Origin: an uncultured Muribaculaceae bacterium
Lineage (GTDB): Bacteria > Bacteroidota > Bacteroidia > Bacteroidales > Muribaculaceae
Length of the DNA: 59,306 nucleotides
Reading direction: 5' to 3'
NCBI GenBank assembly: GCA_947625935.1
Contig: CANQQE010000016.1
Location: 1-59,306 of the forward strand
In this document: positions 29,471 through 49,068 of the stretch, one piece after another
How the letters are laid out: each line of letters begins with the position of its first letter
How positions within the stretch are numbered: the first letter of the stretch is position 1
The notes under the pieces: generated by a model
What the model was told of the DNA's origin: nothing
The model's database searches: none
Seen by the model: only the letters and a program-made list of their open reading frames with translations
Position numbers and translations under genes: made by a program

Positions 29471-29626
29471 CAATATTATAATCAATCGATATTACGAAAA
29501 CCTTATCGCCCGATATTATGCAAGGGAAACCAAGGTGGAATTTAATCCGCTCCGATAGCATTGCCAGTCGAACCTCCAGCAAGCATAGCCAGAGAATCTT
29601 CCACACCGTAACGCTCACACTAAATA

Positions 29627-29663
29627 AAAATGGGGTGTAACTCGTTGAGTTACACCCCATTTT
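29627..29663 (-). terminator. Displaced dnaK terminator (left copy)
   Basis: A perfect 17-bp stem with a 3-nt loop (GGGGTGTAACTC against GAGTTACACCCC, extended by four A:T pairs) is followed on the minus strand by a T-rich run. It is the original chromosomal terminator of dnaK, now cut off from dnaK by the element. The right copy at 49032-49068 differs at three positions, but two of those changes compensate each other. Confidence 0.85.
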
Positions 29664-29698
29664 GTTATCGTTGGTTTGGGGACTTACTTCACTTCCTC
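29657..29698. repeat. Left attachment site core
   Basis: The 42-bp core is identical to 49062-49103. Read on the minus strand, it carries the last dnaK codons (EEVK), the stop and the bases up to the terminator stem. Homology ends abruptly at 29699, where the sequence changes to unrelated element DNA. Confidence 0.9.
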
Positions 29699-29737
29699 AA
29701 ATCTAACCATATTTGATTACCAATATCTTAATATTAT

Positions 29738-29752
29738 ATGGTACAAATATGA
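29738..29752 (+). repeat. Putative integrase arm-type site (left)
   Basis: ATGGTACAAATATGA matches 14 of 15 bases with ATGGTACAAATTTGA at 48959-48973, in the same orientation and just inside the other end. Paired short repeats near both ends are typical of tyrosine-recombinase arm sites; the function is inferred. Confidence 0.4.
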
Positions 29753-29800
29753 GATTTCAAGTTGATAGGAATGACATCGGTTACTTTGTCGTTGTGAGTC

Positions 29801-30796
29801 TCATCTTGTTTCTTCCCATTCCTTCTTGACTTTCTCGACCTCCGCTATCAACTGCTGCTCTGTGGGAAGATAGAGTTGATATTTAGATGCAACAATTGTA
29901 TTATTGTCCGAGGGAAGGGTCATCTTAACCAATGTGTCGTTTTTGGCAGTGCATAGTAATATGCCGATTGTGGGATTCTCCTCCGGTAATTTCTCAGTAC
30001 GGTCGTAGTAATTGACGTACATCTGCAATTGTCCCAGATCCTGATGAGTTACCTCGCCTGTCTTTAACTCAAAAATCACGAACCGGCGAGCAAGACGGTT
30101 GTAAAAGACTAAGTCGATGAAAAACTCGTCATCTTCAAGAATGATTCGTTTTTGACGCGCTACGAAAGTGAACCCATTTCCAAGTTCAAGAATAAATTCC
30201 TGAAGGTGATTGATTAATTCTGTTTCAAGGTCATTCTCGTAGTAATGTGCTTTCTTTTCCAAACCAAGGAATTCCAAAATCATAGGATCCTTGACTATTT
30301 CCTGCGGTGCTTCGGGGGCTCTCTCTTTCCGCGCCATTGCCAGCACAGATTCTTTATCATTGCTAAGAAGCAAGCGTTCATATAGCATTGAATTAATCTG
30401 ACGCTTCATTTGACGTGCCGTCCAACAGTTGTTGATAGTTTCAAGTATGTAATATTCTCTCTTATCCTTGTCGGCAATGTCTAAAAGCCACTTATATTGC
30501 GACCAGTTCAATTGTGCATACAGTGTATGCACAATCGGAAACTCCAGATAAAATTTCTTACTATAATCCAACTGACGTTTACCAAATCCACTGCCAAACT
30601 CCGGTTCAAGTTCTTTCGCAAGATTTTTAATTAGACTCTTTCCATACTCGGCACGCGCACTCCCGCCCTGTTCTTTCTCGACAATGCGTCGTCCTATTTG
30701 CCAGTACATCTGTACGCGACAAAAGTCAACTGAACGGACAGCATTAGACCGAGAGGTTTCAATAATCGAGCGTATTTCAGATACTAAATCTTTCAT
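29801..30796 (-). CDS. DUF1016 (YhcG-type) PDDEXK nuclease domain protein
   Basis: The 331-residue protein has an N-terminal DUF1016_N helical domain (about 10-160; YWQIGRRIVEKEQ, GKRQLDYSKKFYLEFP) and a C-terminal PDDEXK nuclease fold (about 170-320). The catalytic Asp in FFIDLVFYN and the Glu-x-Lys in FELKTG are both present. Family members are widespread in defence and restriction loci, but their target is not established. It starts 6 bp after the zeta-like gene and closes a three-gene operon at the left end of the element. Confidence 0.8.
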   Translation of the reverse strand: MKDLVSEIRSIIETSRSNAVRSVDFCRVQMYWQIGRRIVEKEQGGSARAEYGKSLIKNLAKELEPEFGSGFGKRQLDYSKKFYLEFPIVHTLYAQLNWSQYKWLLDIADKDKREYYILETINNCWTARQMKRQINSMLYERLLLSNDKESVLAMARKERAPEAPQEIVKDPMILEFLGLEKKAHYYENDLETELINHLQEFILELGNGFTFVARQKRIILEDDEFFIDLVFYNRLARRFVIFELKTGEVTHQDLGQLQMYVNYYDRTEKLPEENPTIGILLCTAKNDTLVKMTLPSDNNTIVASKYQLYLPTEQQLIAEVEKVKKEWEETR

Positions 30797-30802
30797 TTTT
30801 TG

Positions 30803-31420
30803 TTATTTTGTAGCTTTCCCCTCCGGAAGGATGGTCGAAGCCCAGTCGGGAAGTTCTTCAACATAGCGTTTCACAAGCTCGCCGTCGCTCAGTCGGAACA
30901 AAAGACGGGCTTCCGCGTCCTCGACAGAGTTGTCATAGACATAGAGCCGGTCAACTATCGCAGACAGGATTTTGCAGTTGGCAATGGATTTGTCGTATCG
31001 AGATATGATTTTGGGGATAGGCACATCATGACCGCCATCCAATACTCGTTGAGCGACTCGCTTGGCATTGATTGTCGGAGATTCGGTGGAAACAAAGAAC
31101 AAGCGGATGAAAAACCCCGTTTCTTTCGCTCTGAGAATGTAATCGACTTTATCGGAAGCTGACATCACAGTTTCAAAGATATGGCTCTTACGTTCTGAAA
31201 GACATCTTTCCCTCCATTCATTGCAATAGTTGGCAGCTTTAAGAACAGATTCCTGATTGTTCCAGTCACCGAACACATCCCGGGCAACATTGTCGGGATT
31301 GATATATTCCGAATCCTCCAACCACTCATGATGCAGAATCTTGGATGTCACGGAAGTTTTGCCTGACCCATTGGGCCCGGCAATCACAATAAGGACTGGA
31401 CGATGATTACTTGCTGCCAT
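30803..31420 (-). CDS. Zeta-toxin-family P-loop kinase
   Basis: The 205-residue protein has Walker A AGPNGSGKTS (about 14-23), YINPDNVARDVF (about 39, the usual substrate-pocket block of bacterial zeta-like ATPases) and the helical lid with arginines near SPTINAKRVAQRV. Zeta toxins phosphorylate UDP-N-acetylglucosamine; chromosomal relatives like this one are often called AAA ATPases, and their targets are mostly untested. It overlaps the upstream 71-aa gene by 14 bp, which suggests a toxin-antitoxin style pair. Confidence 0.75.
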   Translation of the reverse strand: MAASNHRPVLIVIAGPNGSGKTSVTSKILHHEWLEDSEYINPDNVARDVFGDWNNQESVLKAANYCNEWRERCLSERKSHIFETVMSASDKVDYILRAKETGFFIRLFFVSTESPTINAKRVAQRVLDGGHDVPIPKIISRYDKSIANCKILSAIVDRLYVYDNSVEDAEARLLFRLSDGELVKRYVEELPDWASTILPEGKATK

Positions 31421-31622
31421 TCTTTATTCTATTTATGGCATCGCCCCATTTCTCTTGAGCCGCCTGTGCAGCTGCTTCAATTCCGGCAGCCACACGCTCG
31501 GCAGCCCGGCGGGTGCTTTCGCGGGCATCCTCGGCTACCTCACGCATAATCTGAGCCATGCGCTCGTCGCCCGGCTCCTCCATCGACGTAAGTCGATAAC
31601 TATTCATCTGCTCTTCCGACAT
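31407..31622 (-). CDS. Small protein, possible antitoxin of the zeta-like kinase
   Basis: The 71-residue protein is mostly helical and rich in Ala, Glu and Arg (RESTRRAAERVAAGIEAAAQAAQEKWG). No known domain is recognised. Its 3' end overlaps the zeta-like gene by 14 bp, as expected for an antitoxin translated before its toxin. It could equally be an accessory subunit. A near-consensus -7 box (TAACTTTA on the minus strand, 31648-31655) lies about 25 bp upstream. Confidence 0.55.
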   Translation of the reverse strand: MSEEQMNSYRLTSMEEPGDERMAQIMREVAEDARESTRRAAERVAAGIEAAAQAAQEKWGDAINRIKNGSK

Positions 31623-31652
31623 AGTATAATCTTTTATTATTCAACGCTAAAG

Positions 31653-31814
31653 TTATGAAAAAAGTCTGAACCAACCTTTCCTTTTGTGATAAACGATCAT
31701 TCTTCTTGCTCGTGTTTCATCGTGGTACACCACCTGCACCCCCGATTCTTTCCCATCAATCTGAAAGATCAGGAACTCCGCCGTACTATTTTGTATCTCA
31801 AATTTCTCCGCCAT
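31653..31814 (-). pseudogene. N-terminal remnant of a RhuM-family protein
   Basis: The frame, 53 codons before the stop (an alternative ATG at 31820 adds two), reads MAEKFEIQNSTAEFLIFQ, then DGKESGVQVVYHDET. This is close to the N-terminus of virulence RhuM-family proteins, which continue with VWLTQ after the DET. Here the similarity stops at that point, and an unrelated RARRMIVYHKRKGWF tail runs to a stop. More than 250 residues are missing. It marks the seam between the Qat cargo and the zeta/DUF1016 operon. Confidence 0.5.
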
Positions 31815-31826
31815 AGACATGAACGA

Positions 31827-32513
31827 TTATTTGATTGTTTTCAGCAGACATTGAAAATTTTCATATACGATAGATTCATCGATATGAAGATTGTTTAATG
31901 CCGCTATGATGTTATTTTTCTTATTATATGGAGCATCACTTTCCGTAAGCATTTTGTTTAACGGTATTCTACTAATTATCCGCCGTCCATTTTCTGAAAG
32001 AGTCATAGCTTCATTAATGGAGAAATAATATCCTTCTCCAATTATTTCATCAATTAAACCTAAAGGTCCACTATACCAATGAAATATTACGTTCCTAACA
32101 TTATATTTTTTGAGGATAGCCAAAACATCTCTTTCTGCTTTTCGAGAATGAACACTTATGATCTTTTTTTCCCCATTTAGACATTGACAAATATAATCAA
32201 AGTATTCAAGCTGACAGTCTTTGTAAATAATAAAATCACGACTGAAGTCTAATCCAACTTCTCCGATGTATGAAGTCATTGGTATTAGTTTTTTCCAGTT
32301 ATCAATCTCTGATAGATGTTCATGTACAAGTTGAGGATGAAATCCTAATGCGAGTCTTGACTTCCTCAACTTATCAAAGTGAGGTAAACCCATTACAAAA
32401 TGACTTGGTAGATTTGTCATTCCTAATGTAAAATCTCCGCTCTTTTCTTTTTTAGACAAATAAGAGTCTGGAGAATTTAGCATATCTATATGGCAATGAG
32501 TGTCTATTATCAT
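31827..32513 (-). CDS. qatD: QatD: TatD-like metal-dependent DNase of the Qat system
   Basis: I choose the ATG at 32513 (228 residues) because it forms the coupled ATGA overlap with the qatC stop; an ATG at 32519 is also possible. The TIM-barrel metallohydrolase motifs are all visible: D-T-H-C-H near the start, GEVGLDF, SVHSRKAE, IFHWYSG and TESDAPY, which give the metal-binding His, Glu and Asp residues. In the described Qat system, QatD is the TatD-family component needed for phage resistance. A housekeeping TatD would not sit in this context. Confidence 0.85.
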   Translation of the reverse strand: MIIDTHCHIDMLNSPDSYLSKKEKSGDFTLGMTNLPSHFVMGLPHFDKLRKSRLALGFHPQLVHEHLSEIDNWKKLIPMTSYIGEVGLDFSRDFIIYKDCQLEYFDYICQCLNGEKKIISVHSRKAERDVLAILKKYNVRNVIFHWYSGPLGLIDEIIGEGYYFSINEAMTLSENGRRIISRIPLNKMLTESDAPYNKKNNIIAALNNLHIDESIVYENFQCLLKTIK

Positions 32514-33847
32514 ACCCAACCCATATATTTATTGATTAATAATGAGTTTTCTGCTTTAAGCATTTTAGATAATTCAGCCCTAGTTCTTTTTACTAAATCT
32601 ACATATTCGTCGATATTGTCAAATCTGCTCATACCAGCGATATAAAGCTCTTTTTTTATATCATTGTCTGAGAGATCATTCTTAAGAAAATCCAACATCG
32701 CAAAAAAATCGTTTGATACATCGCCATCCCTTTTTATAAATATGGTTTCCAACTTATTACCGTAGGTAGTTTTATCCTTTTCGCCTACTAGAGACGCTTT
32801 TCTATACATACAGGGCATGCAGTGCGCACAGTGGGTTGCACTACTATTGTCAAACATATGCTGATGCATATTTCTTTTACCACATGAATTTGACAACGGA
32901 AGAATTTGCATTAAGGTATCTTTATCCTTACAATTTTGTATCATTTCACCCTTCGTTAAAAATTCATAAGGATTCGATATTGATATACCAATATTTAATT
33001 TATTTAATATATATTGATAATTTTGTAGAAAAACAGGATGAGTTGTTCGTGTACTACAAGCGGCTCTACGCGATGGTGATAAGGGATAATTAAGAGAAAC
33101 AGAGCCGTTCTCAGGAATTATGACATCACATTTAGCATAGGAAGCTACAATGGAGGCAAGAGTTACAAACATTAATGATCGAGAACGACATGATGTTTCC
33201 TTAGATAATTCGGGGCTAATCATAACAGCTTCCCGATATTTAATACGTTTCCCATATTTACTTATTAATGCCTTTCTCACCCCATCTTGATCTGATTTGG
33301 GACCTTTCATATAGCTGTCATAATGAGAGGACAAGTATAAATATCCTTTAGGGTTAGATGCAAGATAATCAATAGCACCGATTAAAGAATCTAATCCACC
33401 CGAGAAAAGACGGACTTGAGAAATGTTATCATAATCGGTATGGACTTTATATTTAGGATATTTTATTGTTGCATCTCCTATGAAATTACAATTCCAATAA
33501 TCACCTGTCAGAAATGAAAGCATATCATTAATTTCATTTCTAACAAGCACGAATTTGGAATATTCAGGGATACGGATATCAACATCAAATTCTCGACTCC
33601 AACCGTCAACTGAATAAATAGCTCTATCCACAGATCGATCTATTGTATACACAATTGCAGATAGAAATAGGAGTCCAAAAATCTCTTCGGGTACTTTCCC
33701 ATGAAAATATGATATCGGATGCAATTGAACAATTGCGGCTGTACGCATGCTTCCAGTCGTAAGCATATCTATGCATAACTCGATGCTTAATCGAATATCG
33801 TTTTTTTTAATTTTACGTACTCTATATGATAAAACCTCAATCTTCAT
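32510..33847 (-). CDS. qatC: QatC: QueC-like PP-loop enzyme of the Qat system
   Basis: I start at the ATG at 33847 (MKIEVLSYRV, 445 residues); a longer frame from 33922 lies wholly within qatB. An N-terminal extension of about 145 residues precedes the PP-loop ATP pyrophosphatase motif SGGLDS (149-154). A four-cysteine zinc site at Cys322, Cys340, Cys343 and Cys346 follows, as in QueC, which makes 7-cyano-7-deazaguanine. In Qat loci the QueC-like enzyme is not part of tRNA queuosine synthesis. It overlaps qatB by 11 bp and qatD by 4 bp. Confidence 0.87.
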   Translation of the reverse strand: MKIEVLSYRVRKIKKNDIRLSIELCIDMLTTGSMRTAAIVQLHPISYFHGKVPEEIFGLLFLSAIVYTIDRSVDRAIYSVDGWSREFDVDIRIPEYSKFVLVRNEINDMLSFLTGDYWNCNFIGDATIKYPKYKVHTDYDNISQVRLFSGGLDSLIGAIDYLASNPKGYLYLSSHYDSYMKGPKSDQDGVRKALISKYGKRIKYREAVMISPELSKETSCRSRSLMFVTLASIVASYAKCDVIIPENGSVSLNYPLSPSRRAACSTRTTHPVFLQNYQYILNKLNIGISISNPYEFLTKGEMIQNCKDKDTLMQILPLSNSCGKRNMHQHMFDNSSATHCAHCMPCMYRKASLVGEKDKTTYGNKLETIFIKRDGDVSNDFFAMLDFLKNDLSDNDIKKELYIAGMSRFDNIDEYVDLVKRTRAELSKMLKAENSLLINKYMGWV

Positions 33848-34664
33848 TTCCAGAAAGAATATATATAATTCGATTAAATTCTTGTTGAATAAATAAACGA
33901 CCTTCTGTCCCCGTCCAGTCAATATTTAATGATGAATGTCCATTAAAGCCACGTCTCACATCGTCCATTATTAAATCTCTTATCTCATTAAAAGTAGTAG
34001 AGGTAACAGACGTTCCTTTCTCATGCTCTAATTTTTCTTTGAAGTTTTGAGAAAGATGGCTGTAAATATAAATACCCATAAACTCATCAACAATTTCTAT
34101 TATATCTGAAGAAGATATTGTAGAGGTCATTACATCATCAAAATTACTAGCATCCGAATCAATCTTATCTTCGAATTGGTCTAAGATATATTCTAGCGCT
34201 TCATTAGCGGCTGTATCATCCATTCCTACGACATTAGATTGGAGATACTCACGAAGATAATTGAGTATTGATACACGTGATTTCCCTAGCTCCTCACCTT
34301 TTCCATTTTCCTTTAACCAGTTACTTAAACCCTTACTCGCGATTTCGGCAAAGGTGTTAACAAAACTCTGCGCTACTACAATACCGGAATGACCTAAGGC
34401 TCGTGAATTGCCATTGGACACTCTTGTCCTACCGCCAGCAGCTCTAACAAGATTTCTTATTGCATGATGATAGCCGCTAGTTATCGATTTAGTGAATTTT
34501 CTTTGTTGCTGTTCAATATATTTCTTACTAGCATTAGGTGGGGGATTATTAATTAACTGTTCCGACTTAAGTTCAGCATTAGCTATCTGCGTCATAGCAG
34601 AAGAGGCTGATCCCCAATTAGGTTCACCTTTTACTCCTGGAGTATGTCTATGCGAAGTTCCCAT
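33837..34664 (-). CDS. qatB: QatB: Qat system protein of unknown biochemical role
   Basis: The 275-residue protein begins Met-Gly-Thr-Ser and continues with a Gly/Pro/Ser-rich segment (about 3-45), like other QatB proteins. A helical body follows. No catalytic motif is recognised. Removal of the initial Met would expose an N-terminal Gly. It overlaps the qatA end by 17 bp and the qatC start by 11 bp, so translation of the three is probably coupled. The assignment rests on its N-terminus and on its fixed place between qatA and qatC. Confidence 0.82.
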   Translation of the reverse strand: MGTSHRHTPGVKGEPNWGSASSAMTQIANAELKSEQLINNPPPNASKKYIEQQQRKFTKSITSGYHHAIRNLVRAAGGRTRVSNGNSRALGHSGIVVAQSFVNTFAEIASKGLSNWLKENGKGEELGKSRVSILNYLREYLQSNVVGMDDTAANEALEYILDQFEDKIDSDASNFDDVMTSTISSSDIIEIVDEFMGIYIYSHLSQNFKEKLEHEKGTSVTSTTFNEIRDLIMDDVRRGFNGHSSLNIDWTGTEGRLFIQQEFNRIIYILSGNED

Positions 34665-36543
34665 TTATTACAGAATCTATAGATTTTATTAGTTTTTGAT
34701 TTCCTGATAATTTATTACGTAAGCTGCCATCATTGTCATGCCGATTTAATAAATCATGAAACTTATTTCCTAATGACATAGGAATCTGTTTTACATCTAT
34801 TCGTGAAAGAATATTCGATAATCTCTCATAAGCTCCTGTTACATTTAGATTATCACAAGCGCAATAAATAGAATACCCATTTTTCGCTTTAGGGTCAATT
34901 GTGATTTGTGCATCTAAAAGATTAAAGAAATCGCTCAGGTCATCTTTATCCATTTTCAAGACTTTATCTTGTATTATCTGGTTACAGATTTTATCAGTCG
35001 AATCATAGGCATCTTTAAATATCATTCTTATTCTTGATGGTATTAGAGATATGCCACTCATTTCATTTATAATTTTGTCTCTGGAGACCCAGAATAATTC
35101 CTTCATGTCCACTTTACTAAAAAGCGGATCTTCTGAAATTATCTGTAATAGGTCTGTTTGATTCCACTCATTAAATTCAAAATCACCAGATCGATCACTT
35201 TGCGCAAAATTTTCAATTGAGATTAGTTCTTTAGGTGTAGAGGACTCAGACATTACCCAATTGTTTAGTTGTTTGAAGAGATTAAGGTCTTTCTGTTCAA
35301 TCAACATAAGCTTTAATAGGGCAAACTTTGATTTTTGATCAGTAATACCAGATTGAGCTAGGAGATTAGCTCTAATTTCGTAAGCATTAAGAAATCTCTT
35401 GATTAATCTAGGATTCCAACGAAGAGATTGTCCTAAAATGCTTGAAAATCGAATAACAAAACCTATCGTGTCCTGTAGTTCTTGTTTATTTTCAAATTCT
35501 CCAGTGAGTATTTCCTGAATATTACTCCAACCATATCTGTCAAATTTGTTGTTACGACAAAAATTAGCAAAATCAGCTTGTACAGTCTTAAACTGAGAAT
35601 GCTCCAGTAATGATTCACAGAATAATAATGTTACGTATGACTCCACTTCCTTATGACTCAGAGCCGGTATATTATATGGTAATTGTATGAATTTTTCCAT
35701 ATAAGAGTCACCGAGATTTGGGCGAGTATTATCCGTATCAGCTTTCTGAGATGCTTCAATTATTGTTTTGTATTCACTTCTAACTGCATTTGAAACAATG
35801 AATTGATCAGCCGCTATTACGAATGCAGTTTTCGGAACGTTTAAGAATAGTTTAATTGCTTCAAGATTATCAATAATATGACGTGGTAGACATCTGTCGA
35901 GATCATCAATTAAAACTATAATTTTGCCCTGTTTGCTCTTATTTATAAGATCTTCAAAATCTTTTCGGAAATCCCTAACGGCCTCATATCTCTTTTCTTC
36001 CCCATCCTTAAATAAGTAATCTTTAAGGAATTGTTCTGTATTGTCGCTTGTTAAGAGTTCCTCTAATTTCCCTTTATTCGAATTAAATAATTCAATTAAT
36101 GTTGGGATGATTAAAGAAGCACCGCCAGTAGCACCAGCAGCTAATACAGACGCACCAGTAGCTGTCCATTTCAGGACTCTCATCCAGCTTATAGATTTCC
36201 CGAGTTTCTTAAACGCTTCTTTCAGTTCACCAGCTTTATCCTTTGTCTTTTCCCAAAAACGCTCGTTCCTTTCTAATGAGTCAACTATACCTTGAATTAA
36301 GGCCATTTTTGCGTCATCAAAGCTTTCAAAAGACCACCCATCAAAGTAAATTACAACACAATCTTTATCTGCTTTGAGTTCCTCCTCTAAGATTTTTAAA
36401 ACACTAGATTTTCCGCAGCCCCAATCACCATATAAGCCTATAGTAATAGGCAAATTTTTACTATTGGTTACGACATCTCTTAAAAGAGAAGCGTGTACTG
36501 AATATCCTAATAAATCGACAGAAGTTTCTATGTCTGACCACAT
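34648..36543 (-). CDS. qatA: QatA: KAP-family P-loop NTPase of the Qat system
   Basis: The 631-residue protein has Walker A GLYGDWGCGKSS (36-47) and Walker B IVLIDDLDRCLP (209-220), both diagnostic for KAP NTPases. The hydrophobic insert at about 121-150 between them is the usual membrane-associated segment of this family. The C-terminal 300 residues are helical without a recognised domain. In Qat it is the ATPase thought to sense or drive the response. Its start is 11 bp after the res stop, so it is translated from the type III RM transcript. Confidence 0.87.
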   Translation of the reverse strand: MWSDIETSVDLLGYSVHASLLRDVVTNSKNLPITIGLYGDWGCGKSSVLKILEEELKADKDCVVIYFDGWSFESFDDAKMALIQGIVDSLERNERFWEKTKDKAGELKEAFKKLGKSISWMRVLKWTATGASVLAAGATGGASLIIPTLIELFNSNKGKLEELLTSDNTEQFLKDYLFKDGEEKRYEAVRDFRKDFEDLINKSKQGKIIVLIDDLDRCLPRHIIDNLEAIKLFLNVPKTAFVIAADQFIVSNAVRSEYKTIIEASQKADTDNTRPNLGDSYMEKFIQLPYNIPALSHKEVESYVTLLFCESLLEHSQFKTVQADFANFCRNNKFDRYGWSNIQEILTGEFENKQELQDTIGFVIRFSSILGQSLRWNPRLIKRFLNAYEIRANLLAQSGITDQKSKFALLKLMLIEQKDLNLFKQLNNWVMSESSTPKELISIENFAQSDRSGDFEFNEWNQTDLLQIISEDPLFSKVDMKELFWVSRDKIINEMSGISLIPSRIRMIFKDAYDSTDKICNQIIQDKVLKMDKDDLSDFFNLLDAQITIDPKAKNGYSIYCACDNLNVTGAYERLSNILSRIDVKQIPMSLGNKFHDLLNRHDNDGSLRNKLSGNQKLIKSIDSVINGNFA

Positions 36544-36554
36544 AATATGTAACC

Positions 36555-39542
36555 TTATTGTGTTATTACTTCTTTTACAATCTGGAGCATCTTCTTGTTA
36601 TTGAGCTGCGTGCGGAAATGGACGTTGTAACCCTGTGCGGAGAGGTTATTGAAAAAGATCTCTGCACATTTGATTTTTGCAGCTTCAACACCACGGAGAG
36701 TTGACTTATTCTCAACGTCTTTGGTTTCAACTACGATGTTAAGTTCTTTATCACCGTTGGCTTTCTTGACCACATACATGAAGTCAGGGCTATATGTTCC
36801 ACCGGCAATCGTTGGTATAGCAATACTACTCCGAGGTATTTTGCCATAGACAATAACTTCGGCTATTCCGGAAAGACCTCCGTCAATATCGGATTCGATG
36901 TCTTCAAGTTCAAGAGGGGAATCGTAAGCTTTCGCATCATACAGATACTTTTCTGCCGCATCTCCTTCCTTCATTTTGACGCCTATTCGACCCTGAGCGA
37001 TTTCTTCTCTGACGCTCCCATCGGCATAGGTAAGTGCCGTGGCCCCCGTTGAGCCATCGGTTTTCTTATATTTGAAACGCCCTTGTAAGGTCTCAATCTT
37101 CCAATCAGTGAATAATTGAACAAGTGCGCTTATAGCCTGTTCATTGAAATGCGAATCCTTTATCTTTCCTGACCTTTTAGTATAGCGGCAGATTGCACTA
37201 TGTATCTTCTCAAGAGAAATATTTGTGGTATCCGACACTCGTTTCAAGAACACACCATAGGGTAATGCTTGATTAATAGTATACTGAACGCCGCTGTTAG
37301 ATGTAGACGACATATGTTCACCATCACTAACAACAATGTCTCTACGGCTGGAGATAACTCTATCCGTAAAAATATTTCCTGTTTCAAGTATCTTGTCAAG
37401 AGTCTTGTCAATTTCTACATTGAGGTCGGATTCATACCATATAGTATATCGCTGGTTGAGCTTCTCCCATAGGTCTCTCAACTCTTCAAACCTTGCCTTC
37501 CTGATTTTGACAGGATGATTGGGTTTGCTGTTGCGGTCTCTTACTTTTCCTCTTTCAAGTCCAGACTTGAATAATGGGTATTCCTCAAAAAACGAAGACT
37601 TATTTTCAGGAATAATATTATATTTAAGATCTACATATTTTTTAGTCAATAATTCAACAAATAGAATGGTTGCATCGGTTCCCATTTTTTGCGCTACCTG
37701 TTGAATAATTTCCAATGAGAGTGTAACTGATTCCGGAATCTCACTGTTTATCTGCTCAACGAGTTTCTTCGCAAAATCAGCTTCTGTAAAATCTACAATA
37801 TAATTTAATGTGAATTCCTCATTGGAAATGCGGTTGCCACACTCATCAACAGGAAGACGCAGACCGCGACCTACTTCTTGTAACTTGGAAATATCACTTC
37901 CACTTGAGCGTAGTTTCGCAATTGTGAATACATTAGGGTTATCCCAACCTTCCTTTAGAGTCCATTTTGAAAATAGAAACCTTCTGAGCATTGGATTACC
38001 GTCTTTGTCCACAAACGAAAGCAACTGTTTTTTCCCGTTAAGGATGTCATTAACCTCCTCGGCAATGCTTTCATCCGAAGAACTATTATCCTGTGCGAAA
38101 TATCCGGCGTGGCAAGCTTTGATATTTTTCAGACTTGCCTCCAAATATTCACGATATTCGTTTTCTTGGTCAGAGAGTTTGCCTATAGTGTCTCTAAGTT
38201 TCTCTTTGAGCAATCGTTCAAAGGCTTCAAGTATGTATGGTTTCTTCCCATCTTCACTCTTCCTATACGACGTTATATCATCAATAAAGAATAGAGCAAG
38301 AGTTTTAATCTTAAAAGTTCTACCAGAGAAATTATGGCGTTCTGTCTCAAAATGTCTCTCCAGGGCAAGACGTATCATTTGCTCCTGATAGGAACTCATG
38401 AATACGTTTACGTCCATTTCCTCACCGACAGTTTTAATTAGTCCGTTGGAAAGTTCAATGGAGTTTTTATCTATGGTTTGGATGGTAAGTCCGGTCAGTT
38501 CATCAGCAATCTGTGAGAGTGAATCGCCTATACGGAGTTGGAAACTCCTTATCGGGGAATTCTCCTGTTTGTGTTGAAATGTAGCTGAATCGTTTTTAGT
38601 AACCGACAGCAACTTGATTTTCTCATTCTTTTGTGAAGTCGGCTCGAAATGCTCTTTCGCAACACCTTTAATCAGTCCTTGATTGAACGACTGACAGGCA
38701 TTAAGGTCATAAAGGAGATTTTGGTAATCCTTGATTGTCTTCTTATTCTTTCCTTTGCCGATTGTGACTTCGGGGAATGTGGCACCAAATCTGATGATAC
38801 ACTGTGGGGCAATCTCCGTCTGTATGATGCCGAAAGCTTTCTGCTCTCTCGAAAATTTGTGAGGTTCATCGATGATTACAAACGGGCGTGTGGCTTTAAG
38901 CGCATTATACGGACGATAAAAGCCTTCCACAACATTGCCATAATCATCTCTGCTTAGGATATAGTTCTTCGCATCTTTCAGTAGTTGCATGTTTACTAAA
39001 AGGACGAAAATTTTCTTAGTATCTTGACATGACCCTTTGACAAATTCACTGACGGCCGCAGGGAAATATTGTCTTCCCTTCTTTTTCTTCTTGGGAGGTT
39101 CAAGCGTAAGAAGGTCAATTTCTGCATCATATCCACAAACATCACGGAAATGACGCTTTACATATTCATCCTCCATAAACTGCCTTGCACCTGCTTTGAT
39201 TGGCAATGTAGGCACAGCTACTATGAATTTATTGATTCCATAGCGTTTATGGAGTTCAAACATAGTCTGAACATAGACATAAGTCTTTCCGGTGCCGGTT
39301 TCCATCTTTATATCAAGATTCAGACATGTAGGTTCATGAGTATATCCTCCATACTCATGCGGAATCTTGTTTATGCCTTGTATATTTCGGATGTTGTCAC
39401 CGACTCCATCCTTAAAAATGGTTATTTCAGGATTGGAATAGTAATGCACAGGCGACTTTACCCATGTATCTTTGAATACATCTGCTACTGCGTCCACCGC
39501 CTTTTGCTGATGCGGCAATGAGGATTGAAGTATCAGTTCCAT
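36555..39542 (-). CDS. Type III restriction enzyme Res subunit
   Basis: The 995-residue protein has the superfamily 2 helicase motifs of type III Res: METGTGKT (80-87, Walker A), DEPHKF (about 224, DEXH-type), LKEGWDNPNVF and EVGRGLRLPVD (motif VI). The C-terminal PD-(D/E)xK nuclease is visible as SPDFMYVV followed by VVETKD (about 930-955). The length is normal for the family. Res cuts DNA after ATP-driven communication between inversely oriented sites and needs Mod for recognition. It starts 1 nt after the mod stop. Confidence 0.9.
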   Translation of the reverse strand: MELILQSSLPHQQKAVDAVADVFKDTWVKSPVHYYSNPEITIFKDGVGDNIRNIQGINKIPHEYGGYTHEPTCLNLDIKMETGTGKTYVYVQTMFELHKRYGINKFIVAVPTLPIKAGARQFMEDEYVKRHFRDVCGYDAEIDLLTLEPPKKKKKGRQYFPAAVSEFVKGSCQDTKKIFVLLVNMQLLKDAKNYILSRDDYGNVVEGFYRPYNALKATRPFVIIDEPHKFSREQKAFGIIQTEIAPQCIIRFGATFPEVTIGKGKNKKTIKDYQNLLYDLNACQSFNQGLIKGVAKEHFEPTSQKNEKIKLLSVTKNDSATFQHKQENSPIRSFQLRIGDSLSQIADELTGLTIQTIDKNSIELSNGLIKTVGEEMDVNVFMSSYQEQMIRLALERHFETERHNFSGRTFKIKTLALFFIDDITSYRKSEDGKKPYILEAFERLLKEKLRDTIGKLSDQENEYREYLEASLKNIKACHAGYFAQDNSSSDESIAEEVNDILNGKKQLLSFVDKDGNPMLRRFLFSKWTLKEGWDNPNVFTIAKLRSSGSDISKLQEVGRGLRLPVDECGNRISNEEFTLNYIVDFTEADFAKKLVEQINSEIPESVTLSLEIIQQVAQKMGTDATILFVELLTKKYVDLKYNIIPENKSSFFEEYPLFKSGLERGKVRDRNSKPNHPVKIRKARFEELRDLWEKLNQRYTIWYESDLNVEIDKTLDKILETGNIFTDRVISSRRDIVVSDGEHMSSTSNSGVQYTINQALPYGVFLKRVSDTTNISLEKIHSAICRYTKRSGKIKDSHFNEQAISALVQLFTDWKIETLQGRFKYKKTDGSTGATALTYADGSVREEIAQGRIGVKMKEGDAAEKYLYDAKAYDSPLELEDIESDIDGGLSGIAEVIVYGKIPRSSIAIPTIAGGTYSPDFMYVVKKANGDKELNIVVETKDVENKSTLRGVEAAKIKCAEIFFNNLSAQGYNVHFRTQLNNKKMLQIVKEVITQ

Positions 39543-39543
39543 A

Positions 39544-41508
39544 TCAATATCTAATTTCGAAATTGATACGAAGATTCTTCTCTCCAGCCTGTACGGTCTG
39601 TAGACTGTCTTTCAAACTCTGCAACTCATTCCAACCGAAGGAATAGCCATAGATTACAACATTCTGTGGATTGAATGAAGCTTCCGTTTGATACTTATCA
39701 AGAAGTATGGCTACTGCTTCGTCTGATAAATCTGGGTTGATTAGATAGAGATGCTTGTCGATATAATATGCCGTATAACCGCCAAGATCTAAAGAGTGGT
39801 AATCAGAAGTCAGACCATAACCATCCCTTTCCAGCCATGTTGTAAGTATGGTAGGAACACCAAATTCATCCATAAGGGTATTGTCACCGAATGCAGTATG
39901 CTTATCAAACTTGATGATTTTCTCCAATGCGACTCCAGATGGTTCTTTCAATGTAAAATGTCGGAATCCGAGATCTCCATGAAAAAGAGGATTCTCTGCT
40001 GCGATTTTTTTTGCGGCACGCCTTATACGATCAATGCCTATCGCATCTATAGTTTTATAACCAGCTTTGAATGCTTCTGAATCTTCATTGCAAGCCTCTT
40101 CAGCCTGAACTATTATGTATTTATTATCACTTTCGCCTTTTTGATTGATCTGAAGTATGGCATCCGCAGATGTACTACTGCCACCAAAAAAATCTAAAAA
40201 ATAGCTACTCTGTAAATCTACAAAAGACAGCAAGTGCATGATTAATGTAGTACATTTGGGATTTTTAAATATTTGGGTTATATTGGGAAACAAGTTCCTC
40301 AACTCATTCGCTCCCGAACGTCCATCGAAATTATATACACTTGAAAACTTGTCTTCGTACTCATCGGCATACACTTTTATCTCTACAAGTTTAGTCTCAT
40401 CATCTCCAAAAATAATTTTCCCATCTTCAATAAGTCTTTGCATAGATGTCTCTGGGAAACGATAACCTCGTAAAGGCTCCGCACAGGGCTTTCCGGTTAC
40501 AGGATGTATGATGTCGTAGTGATAACCCTCTTTGCCTGGGTTATGGACACTTCTACTTCCAGTATATATTCCGTTTTCATCAATAAACTTGTAATCTTCA
40601 AAAGGGCCTAGCTGAGACTTATGATCTCTATACCATGCTTTCCAAATTTGTTGTAGGTCTTCCCCTGAATATGATTGGACTAATTCTCTTCCTTTTCTGA
40701 GTAAAAGGTCTTTAATTTCACTGTCTTTAGACTTCCAAATTGGACTTAACGACGCTCTGTTCTTGCAATAACATAGTATATATTCATGTTCTACAGCAAT
40801 ATTTGTGGGATTATTATCTGTGGCATTTTTCCAAATTATTTGTCCTACAAGATTCTCCTCTCCAAAAACGTCATCACATAACAGTTTAAGATTTCCTTGC
40901 TCGTTATCATCAATCGAGATGAAAATTATACCGTCTTTGCTAAGAATGTCGCGGGCGAGGAGAAGTCGAGGCAACATAAACATAAGCCATGCAGAATGTG
41001 ATGCCGAGCCTCGACGAGTAAGGTCAAGAATGCGTTGAGCCTTGTCTAAAGAGATACTGAGTTTTGTGGATAATTCTTCTGCTGTAAAATTGAAGTTGTC
41101 ATTATACACAAATCCGTCAGAACCCGTATTGTAAGGAGGGTCTATATAGATACACTTTATCTGTCCTGCGTATGATTTCAGAAGATGTTTCAGCGCGTCA
41201 AGATTATCACCGCTGATATAGATATTCTTGCTATCCTTGTTTTCCGGCAAAGAGTTATGCGCTTCGTCAGGAACGATTACTGTGGTGGTGTCAAGAGAAG
41301 CCAACATTCGGGCATAGTTCTTGCCAAGAAACCGCAACTCGTATCCCTCGTCCGTTACTTCTACTTTGTCCTTAAGATATTCTTGAAATCTGACAATATC
41401 GAAACTTCCATCTTCCTTGAAACAGGCAGGAAAATGTTCTCTCAGTATTTCAAGCTCGTTAGAGCCTGGCGTTACTGAATTATTTTTATCAATTATATCT
41501 TTAATCAT
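39544..41508 (-). CDS. Type III DNA methyltransferase Mod subunit (N6-adenine)
   Basis: The 654-residue protein has the catalytic DPPYNTGSDGF (123-133) before the AdoMet-binding FFGGSSTSADAIL (about 440), the order of beta-class N6-adenine methyltransferases and of type III Mod. The roughly 300 residues between them hold the target recognition domain, which decides the methylated sequence. The start overlaps the XRE regulator stop by one base (TGATG). Mod both protects the host and directs Res. The recognition site cannot be read from sequence. Confidence 0.9.
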   Translation of the reverse strand: MIKDIIDKNNSVTPGSNELEILREHFPACFKEDGSFDIVRFQEYLKDKVEVTDEGYELRFLGKNYARMLASLDTTTVIVPDEAHNSLPENKDSKNIYISGDNLDALKHLLKSYAGQIKCIYIDPPYNTGSDGFVYNDNFNFTAEELSTKLSISLDKAQRILDLTRRGSASHSAWLMFMLPRLLLARDILSKDGIIFISIDDNEQGNLKLLCDDVFGEENLVGQIIWKNATDNNPTNIAVEHEYILCYCKNRASLSPIWKSKDSEIKDLLLRKGRELVQSYSGEDLQQIWKAWYRDHKSQLGPFEDYKFIDENGIYTGSRSVHNPGKEGYHYDIIHPVTGKPCAEPLRGYRFPETSMQRLIEDGKIIFGDDETKLVEIKVYADEYEDKFSSVYNFDGRSGANELRNLFPNITQIFKNPKCTTLIMHLLSFVDLQSSYFLDFFGGSSTSADAILQINQKGESDNKYIIVQAEEACNEDSEAFKAGYKTIDAIGIDRIRRAAKKIAAENPLFHGDLGFRHFTLKEPSGVALEKIIKFDKHTAFGDNTLMDEFGVPTILTTWLERDGYGLTSDYHSLDLGGYTAYYIDKHLYLINPDLSDEAVAILLDKYQTEASFNPQNVVIYGYSFGWNELQSLKDSLQTVQAGEKNLRINFEIRY

Positions 41509-41717
41509 CAGATTTCAATTTTAGTATTTAATAGATTATCAACACTGACTTCCAATAACTTGGCAATCTTAACTAAAGTAGGCAAATCTGGCTGAGAACT
41601 ATTTGTACACCATTTTGATACGGTTGATGGATTCACATTTAGTTGCTCACATAACCATTTATTTGTCCTTTTCTTTTCTGCTAAAACTACTTTTAATCGG
41701 TTTATATCAGTTTCCAT
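41508..41717 (-). CDS. XRE-family HTH regulator of the RM-Qat operon
   Basis: This 69-residue protein is a single Cro/C1-type helix-turn-helix (KWLCEQLNVNPSTVSKWCTNSSQPDLPTLVKIAKLLEV; core at about 19-56). It is translationally coupled to mod. Small HTH proteins in this position usually repress or time expression of RM genes so that methylation precedes cleavage. Here it would also control qatABCD, because all seven genes follow one another without a visible internal promoter. Confidence 0.85.
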   Translation of the reverse strand: METDINRLKVVLAEKKRTNKWLCEQLNVNPSTVSKWCTNSSQPDLPTLVKIAKLLEVSVDNLLNTKIEI

Positions 41718-41742
41718 GTCGATAAAATTTGTTATCCACTCG

Positions 41743-41773
41743 CAAATTTAGTGAAAGTTTCGCACATAGCAAA
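41743..41773 (-). promoter_or_regulatory. Strong promoter of the XRE-mod-res-qatABCD operon
   Basis: On the minus strand, TTTG (41770-41773) and TAAATTTG (41743-41750) are separated by 19 bp, which is a textbook Bacteroidetes -33/-7 pair. The -7 box lies 26 bp upstream of the XRE start codon. The promoter is framed by an inverted repeat, CACTCG (41737-41742) and CGAGTG (41779-41784), a candidate operator for the XRE protein. Confidence 0.7.
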
Positions 41774-41868
41774 GAAACCGAGTGTGTTTCGCATCATGTT
41801 TTGCTGCATAATGTAGGCAGAATAGGCGATTATTCTTATAGATATTCGAGGCAATCAGTTGTGAATCG

Positions 41869-41999
41869 TTATGATTGGTGCCATTAATAAGGGCTATTTC
41901 GGCCTCAATAGGCAATCATAACCAAAAGAAAATACATTTGGTAAATTGTTGATATATAGTTAGGTATTGTTATGGCTGGTTATGATTTGATTATGATTG
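41869..41999. repeat. Iteron-like TTATGATTG repeats upstream of the replication module
   Basis: TTATGATTG occurs at 41869-41877 and 41991-41999, in inverted form at 41913-41921, and with one mismatch at 41980-41988. The last two copies are 11 bp apart, about one helical turn. They lie in the 378-bp gap between the divergent XRE and HTH genes. Such repeats are typical binding sites for a replication initiator or for the element's HTH protein; no larger ORF is seen in this gap. Confidence 0.45.
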
Positions 42000-42095
42000 A
42001 GGGTATGGGTTGAGTCAGCATTAAATCACCATTGGTTTTTGCTATTCTTTTGCAGAACGCTTCGATATTGAGGCGCAACGCAAATACCTTTTATA

Positions 42096-42455
42096 ATGGT
42101 CGAAAGAACCACTATCAAATTCGAGGATATGCCCAAGGCTCTGGCATATCTGATTGAAAAAGTTGAAGAGCTTGACCGCAAACTTGAATCACTCAGCGAT
42201 ACTTCGACATCCGGCAAGGATGTGTGGATGGGAATTAAGGAACTGTGCGCATACCTTCCGACGCGTCCGGCTACGCAAACTGTCTATGGGTGGACGAGCG
42301 CACATCTGATACCGTTCCACAAGAAGGGGAAGCGCATCATGTTCCTGAAATCGGAGATAGACAAGTGGCTGATTGGAGAACAACTCAAATCAATCCGTGA
42401 AATCGAGGCTGATGCTGAAGCCTTTTGCGCCGGCAGAAAGGAGCGTAAACTATGA
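42096..42455 (+). CDS. HTH (excisionase-like) DNA-binding protein
   Basis: The 119-residue protein has a short N-terminal coiled segment (about 12-38) and a winged-helix HTH_17-like domain (about 45-95: MGIKELCAYLPT, VYGWTSAHLIPFHKKGKRIMF, KSEIDKWL). Proteins of this shape in Bacteroidales mobilisable elements regulate replication or excision genes. It overlaps the following ATPase gene by 4 bp (ATGA) and lies just downstream of the iteron-like repeats, which it may bind. Confidence 0.75.
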   Translation: MVERTTIKFEDMPKALAYLIEKVEELDRKLESLSDTSTSGKDVWMGIKELCAYLPTRPATQTVYGWTSAHLIPFHKKGKRIMFLKSEIDKWLIGEQLKSIREIEADAEAFCAGRKERKL

Positions 42456-43585
42456 ACGTAATGAATGACCCACTTGGCGGTTTCATCGCCGAGGTTGAAG
42501 GCGGAGCTGGACTACAGGCACCAGATGCAGCGGCTGTACGCTATGAGAGGTTATGCAATGAGGCACAACTTGACATCGACAAAGAGGTGCCACCCCCGCC
42601 TGTTGCCATTTATATAGATGATTCCCCTGCCTGTACCTTCGGCAATTTCAGTGCCTCGATAGGAAAGCCCAAAGGCAAGAAGACCTTTAATGTGTCGGCG
42701 ATGACAGCAGCTGCCATGACCAATTCCACGATTCTGAATTATCGTGGCAACATGCCGTCTGACCAAAACGGTATCCTATACTTCGACACCGAGCAAAGCA
42801 AATATCATGCCTTCCGTGTGTTCAAGCGTATCGCTCGACTGACCCACAGGAGCAACGCGGAAATCAAGCAGCGCATAAAATATTACGCTCTCCGTAAATA
42901 TTCGGTGGAAGACCGCATCGGCATGATTGACCATAAGATTCGGAACACCTCTGCTGTCGGGCTGGTAATCATTGACGGCATCCGTGACCTTATGCTTGAC
43001 ATCAACAATCCCCGCGAAGCGACCCTTATTGTCAACTATCTGATGAAGTGGACGGAGGAATTCAATCTTCATCTCCACACAGTCATCCACCAGAACAAGG
43101 GAGACGAGAACGCACGCGGACACATCGGAACCGAAATCAACAACAAATCCGAGACGGTGCTCCGTGTCGAGAAAGACAAGAACGATGATGCCATCAGCAC
43201 GGTCGAGGCGGTCTATATCCGAGATGTCTCTTTCCCTCCATTTGCCTTTCGGATTAATACCGAGGCTTTGCCGGAACTCATCAGTGACTATGTGCCGACG
43301 CCCGAAGCCAAAGGCAACGAGGCATGGGATCCATACCATGACATAGCCGAAGACACTCACCGCAGTGCGCTTGATTCGGCGTTCTCCAATCCGGATACAC
43401 TGCTTCGGCATGGCGAGCTCATGGACGCGCTCCGGGACGCATACGCAGAGGAGGATATCGAACTCAGCGACTACAAGCTCAAGATTCTGATAACTTTTCT
43501 AAAGAACAAGCGGATGATTGAGCAGGTGGACAAGGGCAAAAAGAAAGGCAATCCGTACCGTTACCTTCAGGACTTTTACTATTGA
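42452..43585 (+). CDS. RepA/RecA-like ATPase of the element's replication module
   Basis: The 377-residue protein resembles the RepA-type (AAA_25) ATPases found beside primases in Bacteroidales integrative elements. The P-loop is degenerate (IGKPKGKKT, about 66-74), Walker B is visible in GLVIIDGIRDL (about 170), and a His-x-Asn sensor follows (VIHQNKGDENARG). The C-terminal 80 residues look like a winged helix. It is probably a replicative helicase or loader for the excised element. It is coupled to the gene before it. Confidence 0.7.
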   Translation: MNVMNDPLGGFIAEVEGGAGLQAPDAAAVRYERLCNEAQLDIDKEVPPPPVAIYIDDSPACTFGNFSASIGKPKGKKTFNVSAMTAAAMTNSTILNYRGNMPSDQNGILYFDTEQSKYHAFRVFKRIARLTHRSNAEIKQRIKYYALRKYSVEDRIGMIDHKIRNTSAVGLVIIDGIRDLMLDINNPREATLIVNYLMKWTEEFNLHLHTVIHQNKGDENARGHIGTEINNKSETVLRVEKDKNDDAISTVEAVYIRDVSFPPFAFRINTEALPELISDYVPTPEAKGNEAWDPYHDIAEDTHRSALDSAFSNPDTLLRHGELMDALRDAYAEEDIELSDYKLKILITFLKNKRMIEQVDKGKKKGNPYRYLQDFYY

Positions 43586-43652
43586 AAAAGTTAGTTGGAT
43601 GAAACGGGCCTATATATACACGACACCTCACCCAACCAAAATTCGCCTTACA

Positions 43653-44627
43653 ATGACTAATGATTACCGATACCGGCTTGATAACACCCGTCCACGCATC
43701 AAAGTGACATGCCCTGCCTGCGGACGGCAGAAGAAACTTGTGCGCTATATTGACACACAGACGGGGCGGTTCCTTGCCGATCATGTAGGAAAGTGCGACC
43801 GTATTTTCAAATGCGGATATCACTACACACCATCCGACTATTTTCGGGACCATCCCTGGCTAAGAGAGGCATTATCGTGGCAGTCTTCAACATCGCTGCA
43901 TCAGCCACCACCTCAACGGGTAGAACCGATAAGAAAACCGTCCTTCATAGACACGGGCTTGATGAACGAGACCGTGAAGCATTGTCAATCCTCCACGCTG
44001 TTTCGATTCCTCAGTTCCCTGTGGGGTGAGGACGAAACCATGCGGCTGTTCCGATTATATAATGTAGGAGCAACCACCCGGATGAACGATGCGGCGGTAT
44101 TTTGGCAAGTGGATGTCAACGGGTGTATCCGAACAGGGAAGATAATGCGATACGGCAACGACGGGCACCGCATAAAGGAAGATGGGTTGGTAAACTTCAT
44201 GTGGGCGCACCGTATGAAATCGATGGTTGACAATCTAGATGACTTCAATCTTGTGCAATGCTTCTTCGGCGAACACTTGCTTTCGGTTCACCCCGGATCA
44301 AAGGTCATGATAGTGGAATCCGAGAAGTCAGCCATAATCGCCTCTCATTATTATCCGCAGTACCTTTGGATGGCGAGTGGCGGATGCTGCGGATGCCTCA
44401 ATCGGACGGCTTCGCAGGTATTGAAAGGCAGGGAAGTGTGGCTCGTGCCTGACCTTGATGCCGAAAACCGATGGCGCAGCAAATTGGCGATGCTCCGCAC
44501 AATTACTCCGACTGCCGGAATTGTCACTGCCATATCCGACATGGCAACACCGGAGCAGAGAGCCGCCAAACTCGACATCGCCGACTTCCTTTTGGATGCG
44601 GCATCCCGGAATAACCCCATTGTATGA
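43653..44627 (+). CDS. Zinc-finger/Toprim-like primase protein (DUF6371-like)
   Basis: I start at the ATG at 43653 (MTNDYRYRLD, 324 residues); a longer frame from 43518 lies within the ATPase gene. An N-terminal four-cysteine zinc finger (Cys20, Cys23, Cys48, Cys54) precedes a DUF6371-like middle and a Toprim-like core with VESEKSAIIA (about 219) and VPDLDAENRW (about 263). This layout matches CHC2/Toprim primases of mobile elements. Together with the RepA-like ATPase it forms a self-contained replication module. Confidence 0.72.
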   Translation: MTNDYRYRLDNTRPRIKVTCPACGRQKKLVRYIDTQTGRFLADHVGKCDRIFKCGYHYTPSDYFRDHPWLREALSWQSSTSLHQPPPQRVEPIRKPSFIDTGLMNETVKHCQSSTLFRFLSSLWGEDETMRLFRLYNVGATTRMNDAAVFWQVDVNGCIRTGKIMRYGNDGHRIKEDGLVNFMWAHRMKSMVDNLDDFNLVQCFFGEHLLSVHPGSKVMIVESEKSAIIASHYYPQYLWMASGGCCGCLNRTASQVLKGREVWLVPDLDAENRWRSKLAMLRTITPTAGIVTAISDMATPEQRAAKLDIADFLLDAASRNNPIV

Positions 44628-44676
44628 GCTGAAGACGGAGCCAATCAGCTTGCTGAATGTAGGGAGGATTTTAGTA

Positions 44677-44793
44677 ATAAAATTCCGTAGCTTATTATGG
44701 CATTTTCATCCGAAGTCTCCGACCTCTCCCGAAAAAGCCATCAGTCACCGAGCCACCTCCCGGCTCTCTGTTGCGATTGATACGGAATTTTAT
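44677..44793 (+). other. Three-stem inverted-repeat structure before mobV (possible oriT or structured RNA)
   Basis: A perfect 13-bp inverted repeat (ATAAAATTCCGTA at 44677-44689 and TACGGAATTTTAT at 44781-44793) closes a 117-nt region. Inside it are a second stem with 10 of 11 pairs (44697-44707 with 44731-44741) and a 5-bp hairpin (44750-44754 with 44762-44766). The layout folds as a three-way junction. It ends 25 bp before the MobV start, where relaxase origins of transfer often lie. Confidence 0.5.
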
Positions 44794-44818
44794 CATAATC
44801 ATTTTAATTCAAGAATAT

Positions 44819-46216: not shown

Positions 46217-46220
46217 CCTT

Positions 46221-46976: not shown

Positions 46977-47088
46977 TTTTCTGCAAAGTTAGAAAATCCA
47001 TAGAAAACGATAAAGAAATTACATTGTAATACCCTCACTTTTAGGCTTTTTTATCTATATAAATATAGTCGCTTTTCTATAAATATTG

Positions 47089-48884: not shown

Positions 48885-48958
48885 AGGGCATATCTGTTAT
48901 TGTATCACTTAATCTTCAAATTTGTAACGTAAGTATACTTCGTCTTCATATTTCTGTA

Positions 48959-48973
48959 ATGGTACAAATTTGA
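48959..48973 (+). repeat. Putative integrase arm-type site (right)
   Basis: ATGGTACAAATTTGA pairs with the left arm candidate at 29738-29752 (14 of 15 bases, same orientation). It lies about 90 bp from the attachment core and upstream of the int operon. Confidence 0.4.
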
Positions 48974-49031
48974 TGCAAATATAAGCTAAAAATCCATAGA
49001 AATCAAGTATTCGTAGAGAAAAGTGTAAATA

Positions 49032-49068
49032 AAAATGGAGTGTAACTCGTTGAGCTACACTCCATTTT
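49032..49068 (-). terminator. dnaK terminator (right copy, element-derived)
   Basis: A 17-bp stem with a 3-nt loop lies directly after the dnaK stop and is followed by a T-rich run on the minus strand. Relative to the left copy it has one compensated G:C to A:T pair (49039 with 49061) and one change that leaves a U:G wobble in the RNA (49055), so the fold is kept. Confidence 0.85.

Follow-up and report, generated by a model that had tools for sequence, protein, structure and literature searches.

The XRE-mod-res-qatABCD row

We analysed 59,306 nt of an uncultured Muribaculaceae bacterium (assembly GCA_947625935.1, contig CANQQE010000016.1), here called the window (genome G000), in which a complete QatABCD defence system lies directly behind a type III restriction-modification pair. 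A sequence-only reading of this DNA had proposed a single seven-gene operon, and the row was recovered exactly, with all seven genes on the minus strand from 41717 to 31827. XRE and mod overlap by 1 nt, gaps of 1 nt and 11 nt separate mod from res and res from qatA, and the qat genes overlap by 17 nt (qatA/qatB), 11 nt (qatB/qatC) and 4 nt (qatC/qatD). The second defence is thus co-directional and tightly spaced with the restriction genes. The interval of the earlier reading, which ran to 41773, takes in the promoter upstream of XRE.

41743-41773, minus strand: Bacteroidota-type promoter, TTTG-N19-TAAATTTG, 25 nt before the XRE start codon, conserved box
41508-41717, minus strand: XRE/RstR-like helix-turn-helix protein, 69 aa, candidate autorepressor (NF041951, 1.1e-9, below cut-off)
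39544-41508, minus strand: mod, EcoP15I-like type III DNA methyltransferase, 654 aa (PADLOC 1.3e-172; PDB 4zcf 4.6e-194; DPPY)
36555-39542, minus strand: res, type III restriction helicase/endonuclease, 995 aa (PADLOC 1.6e-253; NF012027 1150.8 bits; GTGKT, DEPH, PDF..VET)
36544-36554, minus strand: res-qatA spacer, 11 nt, equal in length in genome G468 with 8/11 nt identical
34648-36543, minus strand: qatA, KAP-family NTPase, 631 aa (PADLOC 3e-92, NCBIfam 4e-108; Walker A GDWGCGKS, Walker B)
33837-34664, minus strand: qatB, 275 aa (MGTS N-terminus; P15 and W17 conserved; predicted fold)
32510-33847, minus strand: qatC, QueC-like, 445 aa (PADLOC 8e-77, NCBIfam 1.8e-88; PDB 9vlk 1.2e-42; SGGLDS, TRTTH, Cys/His cluster)
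31827-32513, minus strand: qatD, TatD-family nuclease, 228 aa (PADLOC 1.6e-49, NCBIfam 1.3e-56; D.H.H, GEVGLD, HSR, FHWY, SDAP)

Families were assigned with PADLOC, Pfam and NCBIfam, and QatB by its fold, confirming the complete QatABCD system behind mod-res that had been proposed. QatC scored above its NCBIfam equivalog cut-off; QatA, QatB and QatD scored below theirs. QatB had no PADLOC match and its sequence-profile evidence alone was weak. Its predicted structure (mean pLDDT 88.3) matched only two entries of the PDB library at E <= 0.001, the QatB-QatC structures 9y01 and 9y02, and by this modelled fold and its MGTS start the protein matches solved QatB. The motifs searched in Mod, Res and the four Qat proteins were all present, and the key motifs of the row look intact.

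Mod has the DPPY motif of an N6-methyltransferase and an EcoP15I-like C-terminal domain, and its nearest solved protein is EcoP15I Mod, matched over nearly its full length. The adjoining Res carries helicase and C-terminal endonuclease domains and is alike to EcoP15I Res in family and motifs. The window system differs from EcoP15I in the XRE gene in front, the Qat genes behind and a recognition part that varies between relatives. The Qat part comprises KAP NTPase, QueC-like and TatD proteins in the A-B-C-D order, with a QatB of helical fold; the nearest solved protein to its QatC is itself a QatC. In QatC, the SGGxDS motif is accompanied by a Thr pair replacing Tyr/Asp (the invariant TRTTH), equated with T278/T280 by motif and not by alignment to the Pseudomonas aeruginosa protein.

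The only strong promoter had been placed in front of XRE, and this stood in part. The pattern TTTG-N17-21-TAnnTTTG occurs twice in the 59-kb window, once before XRE, against 0.91 expected, and two matches were reached by 23/100 shuffles. Since this count is near chance, the pattern was rejected as evidence on its own. The promoter call gains weight instead from conservation, because G427, G600 and G468 carry TAAATTTG too, again 25 nt ahead of this XRE gene and in almost identical surrounding sequence. The TTTG at -33 is present in the window and matched more weakly in G427 and G600, the three genomes compared. We found no TAnnTTTG on the operon strand between 34147 and 39256, hence no such consensus near qatA, and no terminator-like site at the res-qatA junction. 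Scans for sigma-70 promoters and terminators performed at or near chance and were set aside as evidence.

An imperfect inverted repeat (41751-41765, minus strand) sits between the promoter boxes and overlaps the promoter. Its pairing is perfect (GTGAAANNNTTTCAC) only in G468, falling to 5/6 in G427 and to 4/6 in both G600 and the window. The repeat is a candidate XRE operator and no more than that. With the XRE gene first, the -7 box conserved and the candidate operator weak, control by a shared small repressor may be considered. Co-transcription and shared control of the restriction and Qat genes are likely.

The junction in a second genus and the probable exchange of qatABC

The earlier reading had named absence of this linkage from other genomes as grounds against itself. 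The linkage was found in G468, from another genus of the family, as XRE-mod-res-qatABCD with the same 11-nt res-qatA junction; its repetition there rules out a unique accident.

The two operons share a frame and differ in what it holds. Pairwise identity between the window and G468 was 87% for XRE, 61% for Mod, 78% for Res and 72% for QatD (32% over the last stretch of QatD). Within Mod, the first 200 columns were 74-94% identical and the middle, recognition part only 8-32%. By contrast, QatA, QatB and QatC reached only 30%, 28% and 32% pairwise, and 28%, 22% and 28% in the multiple alignment. At the nucleotide level (blastn), similarity began in the second half of mod, covered res and the spacer and ended 52 nt inside qatA; it resumed, at 80%, at the first base of the qatD ATG. 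A laxer limit added two short matches in between, of 105 nt and 40 nt. The qatABC genes of G468 are instead near those of a Segatella copri plasmid (66/46/62%), with three similar blocks that start 2 nt before qatA and reach 114 nt into qatD.

Trees agreed with these boundaries. The QatABC tree placed the window with G400 and G552 (support 100) and G468 with Segatella and G742, and a grouping of G000 with G468 was rejected (p-AU 7e-45); the QatD tree united G000 and G468 (100/96). The tree program gave a long-branch warning at the meeting point of the G468 group and G344, with no bearing on the G000/G468 split. Across all pairs of 37 loci, the window/G468 pair showed the largest departure of QatD from the QatC trend. 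As promoter, XRE, mod ends, res and qatD are common and qatABC is unlike, either qatABC was replaced or Qat was gained twice at the same base and qatD was then shared. Replacement would be the simpler course. On these alignments qatABC looks like an exchangeable cassette in a restriction operon, and the restriction-Qat pairing looks kept rather than accidental.

The place behind res is not always filled by Qat. Among family genomes (n=313), nine held close res relatives at E<=1e-200. Qat followed res in two of them (G000 and G468), and six had no same-strand gene start within 80 nt after res in a gene map of frames >= 60 aa, from which overlapped frames may be lost. In the ninth, G427 (locus L042, 6068-9174), three uncharacterised genes (310, 377 and 346 aa) begin 14 nt behind res. 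The first, the only one scanned, had no Pfam match, and the three are a possible undescribed defence module. Qat as a universal partner of type III systems was rejected, given two of nine close res relatives and 0/24 viral-contig res relatives within the available stretches.

Restriction and BREX genes around Qat loci

Phylum loci were collected from genomes of the window's order, family, class and phylum (393, 398, 395 and 395; overlapping sets) together with L002 (Bacteroides sp.). L002 was the sole locus of a QatC contig scan and was taken as the same record as G552, their match coordinates being equal. The survey totalled 136 loci, 62 of them with qatA and qatB. Matches below 40 bits in one genome set and six sub-cut-off matches in 539-669-aa frames in another were left out. 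Twenty-five phylum Qat loci, each with at least 700 nt upstream, were scored over an upstream span of 4.5 kb; L047, L051 and L064, with less than 300 nt upstream, stand outside the 25. The viral-contig locus L144 (contig end), L076 (qatA not found) and L120 (stretch too short for qatC) were dropped, and L053 (G093) was judged not to be a real Qat locus. At L120, annotated Xre/RES toxin-antitoxin genes overlap qatA.

A restriction or BREX gene lay upstream on the Qat strand in 10/25 phylum loci and downstream on that strand in none (0/25). Six of the ten were directly joined (<= 20 nt), or seven counting G1279:

Window and G468: type III, 11 nt upstream of qatA
G400: LlaJI-like endonuclease (Pfam RE_LlaJI), 4 nt upstream
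G552: LlaJI-like, truncated copy assigned by similarity to G400, 5 nt upstream
G1053: HsdS, 14 nt upstream; HsdR present, no HsdM identified
G1279: HsdS plus a 77-aa frame, 15 nt upstream; HsdM present
G444: Eco57I-type methylase, 20 nt upstream
G1189: Eco57I-type 1252-aa enzyme, 102 nt upstream
G039: HsdM-HsdS followed by an AAA gene, the latter 223 nt away
G891 (L071): BrxL, 298 nt upstream on the Qat strand

A sign test on 10 versus 0 gave 0.002, or 0.008 with two like pairs collapsed; for tight junctions the values were 0.016 (7 versus 0) and 0.06 (5 versus 0, pairs collapsed). Qat behind restriction genes thus recurs in the window's phylum. By the same reference set, 15/25 phylum loci had no restriction or BREX gene upstream on the Qat strand, which argues against an obligate dependence of Qat on restriction. 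Two further arrangements were seen. G484 has a divergent methylase near Qat, and in G990 (L072, 3-4577) a type III mod-res pair faces qatD in convergent orientation at a distance of 86 nt, which makes a second type of type III/Qat neighbourhood.

Outside the phylum, none of the 24 plasmid and Escherichia coli loci scored with the restriction reference set had such a gene (0/24). An annotated 'restriction endonuclease' lies upstream of qatA, not directly joined, in Roseivivax (141 nt), Sulfitobacter (124 nt) and, farther up, Delftia. Counting annotated cases, the excess in the window's phylum is weak (10/27 versus 3/24, p 0.058). Other defence-like genes occur 10-24 nt upstream of Qat, namely SbcC-like in Aliarcobacter and NERD/DUF3883 in Sulfuricurvum. 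On the Aliarcobacter plasmid (L109, 1-13579), qatABCD is part of a longer row that includes SbcD-like and SbcC-like genes (10-nt gap), DUF2779 and AAA-domain genes, with a 1-nt gap after qatD as annotated. On plasmids, QatC matched 125 records and QatA 103, of which 23 QatA records were inspected. In E. coli, a Pantoea qatC matched 19/5426 genomes, and the four loci inspected among these 19 had no annotated restriction gene directly upstream of Qat.

A QatC-profile scan of viral contigs gave 80 loci, of which eight were kept as Qat loci; one (L138) has BrxL 630 nt upstream on the Qat strand. The scan was rejected as a large Qat survey, since 71/80 matches (L146-L216) were lone QatC-like frames (366-803 aa, mostly about 600-720) with no qatA, qatB or qatD found. 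These frames are a phage-borne QueC/QatC relative.

The operon itself lies between two copies of a direct repeat, among genes of a mobile element:

29621-29701: left copy of an 81-nt direct repeat that holds the dnaK 3' end with its terminator, a likely att site
29801-31420: genes for a zeta-toxin-like kinase and a YhcG/DUF1016 nuclease, immediately behind the operon and within the element
42096-44627, plus strand: HTH_17, AAA_25 and DUF6371/zinc-ribbon genes of maintenance/mobilization type
44816-46216, plus strand: Mob_Pre relaxase of the element
47089-48336, minus strand: tyrosine integrase of the element
49026-49106: right copy of the 81-nt repeat, 95% identical, overlapping the last dnaK codons
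49089-50999, minus strand: dnaK

Between the repeats lie the integrase, an accessory HTH protein, the relaxase, three small element genes, the operon and the zeta-like and YhcG genes. With integrase, relaxase and flanking direct repeats at a specific site, 29621-49106 reads as an integrative mobilizable element of ~19.4 kb at the dnaK 3' end, the operon being its cargo. The operon has a G+C content of 33-40%, whereas most of the window is at about 50%. No empty site of the element was seen, and the gene to its left, sought in two congeners, was not found there. Behind the dnaK stop of the congener G394 (L223) lie a further accessory protein and an integrase-like gene, called by resemblance of the translations and not by domain search.

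Probable working of the operon and its place among known systems

We consider it probable, though by no means settled, that the row is a two-layer defence operon on this integrative mobilizable element, its layers acting independently. The platform would be the EcoP15I-like type III system XRE-mod-res, with the small XRE protein as the probable repressor of the shared promoter, which is also its own. The slot directly behind res would here hold the whole Qat system, and one transcript from the XRE promoter would yield all seven proteins. Mod would appear first and Qat last, so that both defences would rise together after entry into a new host. As established for the type III family, Mod would mark host DNA and Res cut unmarked DNA. 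QatC would modify the N-terminal glycine of QatB, which may then act on phages escaping restriction. Recombination would swap both the mod recognition part and the qatABC cassette, diversifying the two on one mobile unit. Gene order, spacings, the promoter box, the element's repeats and integrase, the G468 linkage, the shared frame and the upstream-only placement in the surveyed phylum loci are seen in the sequence itself. The two defence layers most likely act independently.

Several observations weigh against this account. Only 25 loci underlie the 10-versus-0 asymmetry, and the restriction reference set was drawn mostly from those same loci, so that types may be missed on either side. The candidate operator pairs at only 4/6 positions in the window, and weak or non-consensus promoters may lie inside res. 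Only two of the nine close res relatives in the family carry Qat, so the restriction system is not bound to it. Of the 24 res relatives on viral contigs, none carries Qat within the available stretches.

A rival explanation is hitchhiking within a defence island, in which Qat would have landed behind res by chance and be expressed by read-through or from a weak promoter of its own, with no functional or regulatory tie. The 15 loci without a same-strand gene upstream are consistent with this, as are the six res relatives with no mapped gene in the slot, the other genes in the G427 slot and the further cargo next door, the zeta-like and YhcG genes. Chance landing fits poorly, however, with same-strand placement that is exclusively upstream, with tight junctions repeated across different restriction types and with a junction retained in G468 despite its unlike qatABC. 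We regard hitchhiking as unlikely, if deserving of serious weight.

Functional partnership is another, improbable explanation. Here DNA ends or fragments made by Res, or by other upstream restriction enzymes, would be substrates or triggers of Qat, chiefly for QatD, so that QatD and not QatABC would track restriction linkage. Five restriction-linked loci (G000, G468, G444, G400 and G552) form one clade (96/90) in the 17-protein QatD tree, whilst their QatABC proteins belong to three lineages. Forcing QatD into the QatABC grouping (G000 with G400 and G552) was rejected (p-AU 0.019). Over the 37 loci, identities of QatA, QatB and QatC correlate with each other at 0.87-0.88 and with QatD at 0.67-0.71. 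DNA binding by QatA (PMC13279940) also fits a partnership. Against this, the clade was noticed in the tree before any test; the chance of such a split is about 0.004, or 0.018 after collapsing pairs. A contig end truncates the upstream gene of G742, and the stretch upstream in L137 measures 1199 nt. The type I-linked G1053 (same class, other order) and G1279 (other class) fall elsewhere in a wider QatD tree. The same pattern could arise if qatD were exchanged through recombination on related elements; G468 and G400 share their downstream flank (86-87%). In P. aeruginosa, moreover, QatB with QatC is enough for protection against some phages (PMC13279940). The association of QatD with restriction is, from these trees, a lead. 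That QatD belongs to the restriction platform, with qatABC as interchangeable as a recognition domain and QatD (perhaps QatA) coupling restriction-made DNA ends to QatBC, making Qat a follow-up stage of restriction, seems to us improbable.

The sufficiency of QatB and QatC against some phages in P. aeruginosa also speaks against an obligate dependence of Qat on restriction. The same study (PMC13279940) describes QatA as binding DNA. QatC catalytic residues and QatB Gly2 were needed there, and the reaction could not be reconstituted; N-terminal deazaguanylation is stated, citing other work, in PMC13329287. With the P. aeruginosa and E. coli systems (PMC13279940; PDB 9y01, 9y02, 9zee, 9vlk) the window shares gene order, the MGTS start and fold of QatB and the SGGxDS motif of QatC. 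That study tests the qat genes as their own operon, whereas here they follow restriction genes, and QatABC and QatD differ in descent between the window and G468.

The sequence-only reading had called the tight coupling the unusual part, a claim that is tempered by the recurrence in the phylum and by known defences within restriction operons, one of them under a small repressor. The RptR-controlled RRDM island of enteropathogenic E. coli (PMC12255303) is, like the window, a seven-gene row with a second defence joined to a restriction operon. Its first gene encodes a small self-repressing regulator, a role for which the window XRE is only a candidate, and the main text of that paper does not use the term XRE. 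The island is type I with DarTG2 embedded between hsdS and hsdR; the window is type III with Qat behind res. TgvAB in the VPI-2 type I operon (PMC11411939) is likewise a second defence within a restriction operon, covering what restriction misses. As described there, it is a Type IV-like enzyme, embedded, from another phylum and without an RptR-type repressor, unlike the appended Qat. The earlier reading is supported in part, by the single gene row, by the conserved promoter box before XRE, by the lack of that consensus around qatA and by the finding of the linkage in another genus.

By title or abstract start, no paper on Qat joined to restriction genes was found in the open-licence literature outside bioRxiv, which is weak evidence of absence; in none of PMC11090510, PMC12839542 and PMC13092281 does the main text use the term Qat. 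As far as we have seen, Qat behind a type III system, its recurrence behind several restriction types in one orientation and unlike qatABC between shared res and qatD are new. A 2026 structural paper (PMC13279940) names as open the mechanism by which QatB modification blocks phages and the roles of QatA and QatD. The natural Qat-restriction fusions and the hybrids in which qatABC differs and QatD is shared are ready-made genetics for such questions, and the hybrids suggest that A, B and C form the unit that must match, with D the shareable part. They also suggest that complete second defences dock repeatedly at the 3' end of restriction operons, a point of relevance to predictions of defence synergy and to the annotation of islands.

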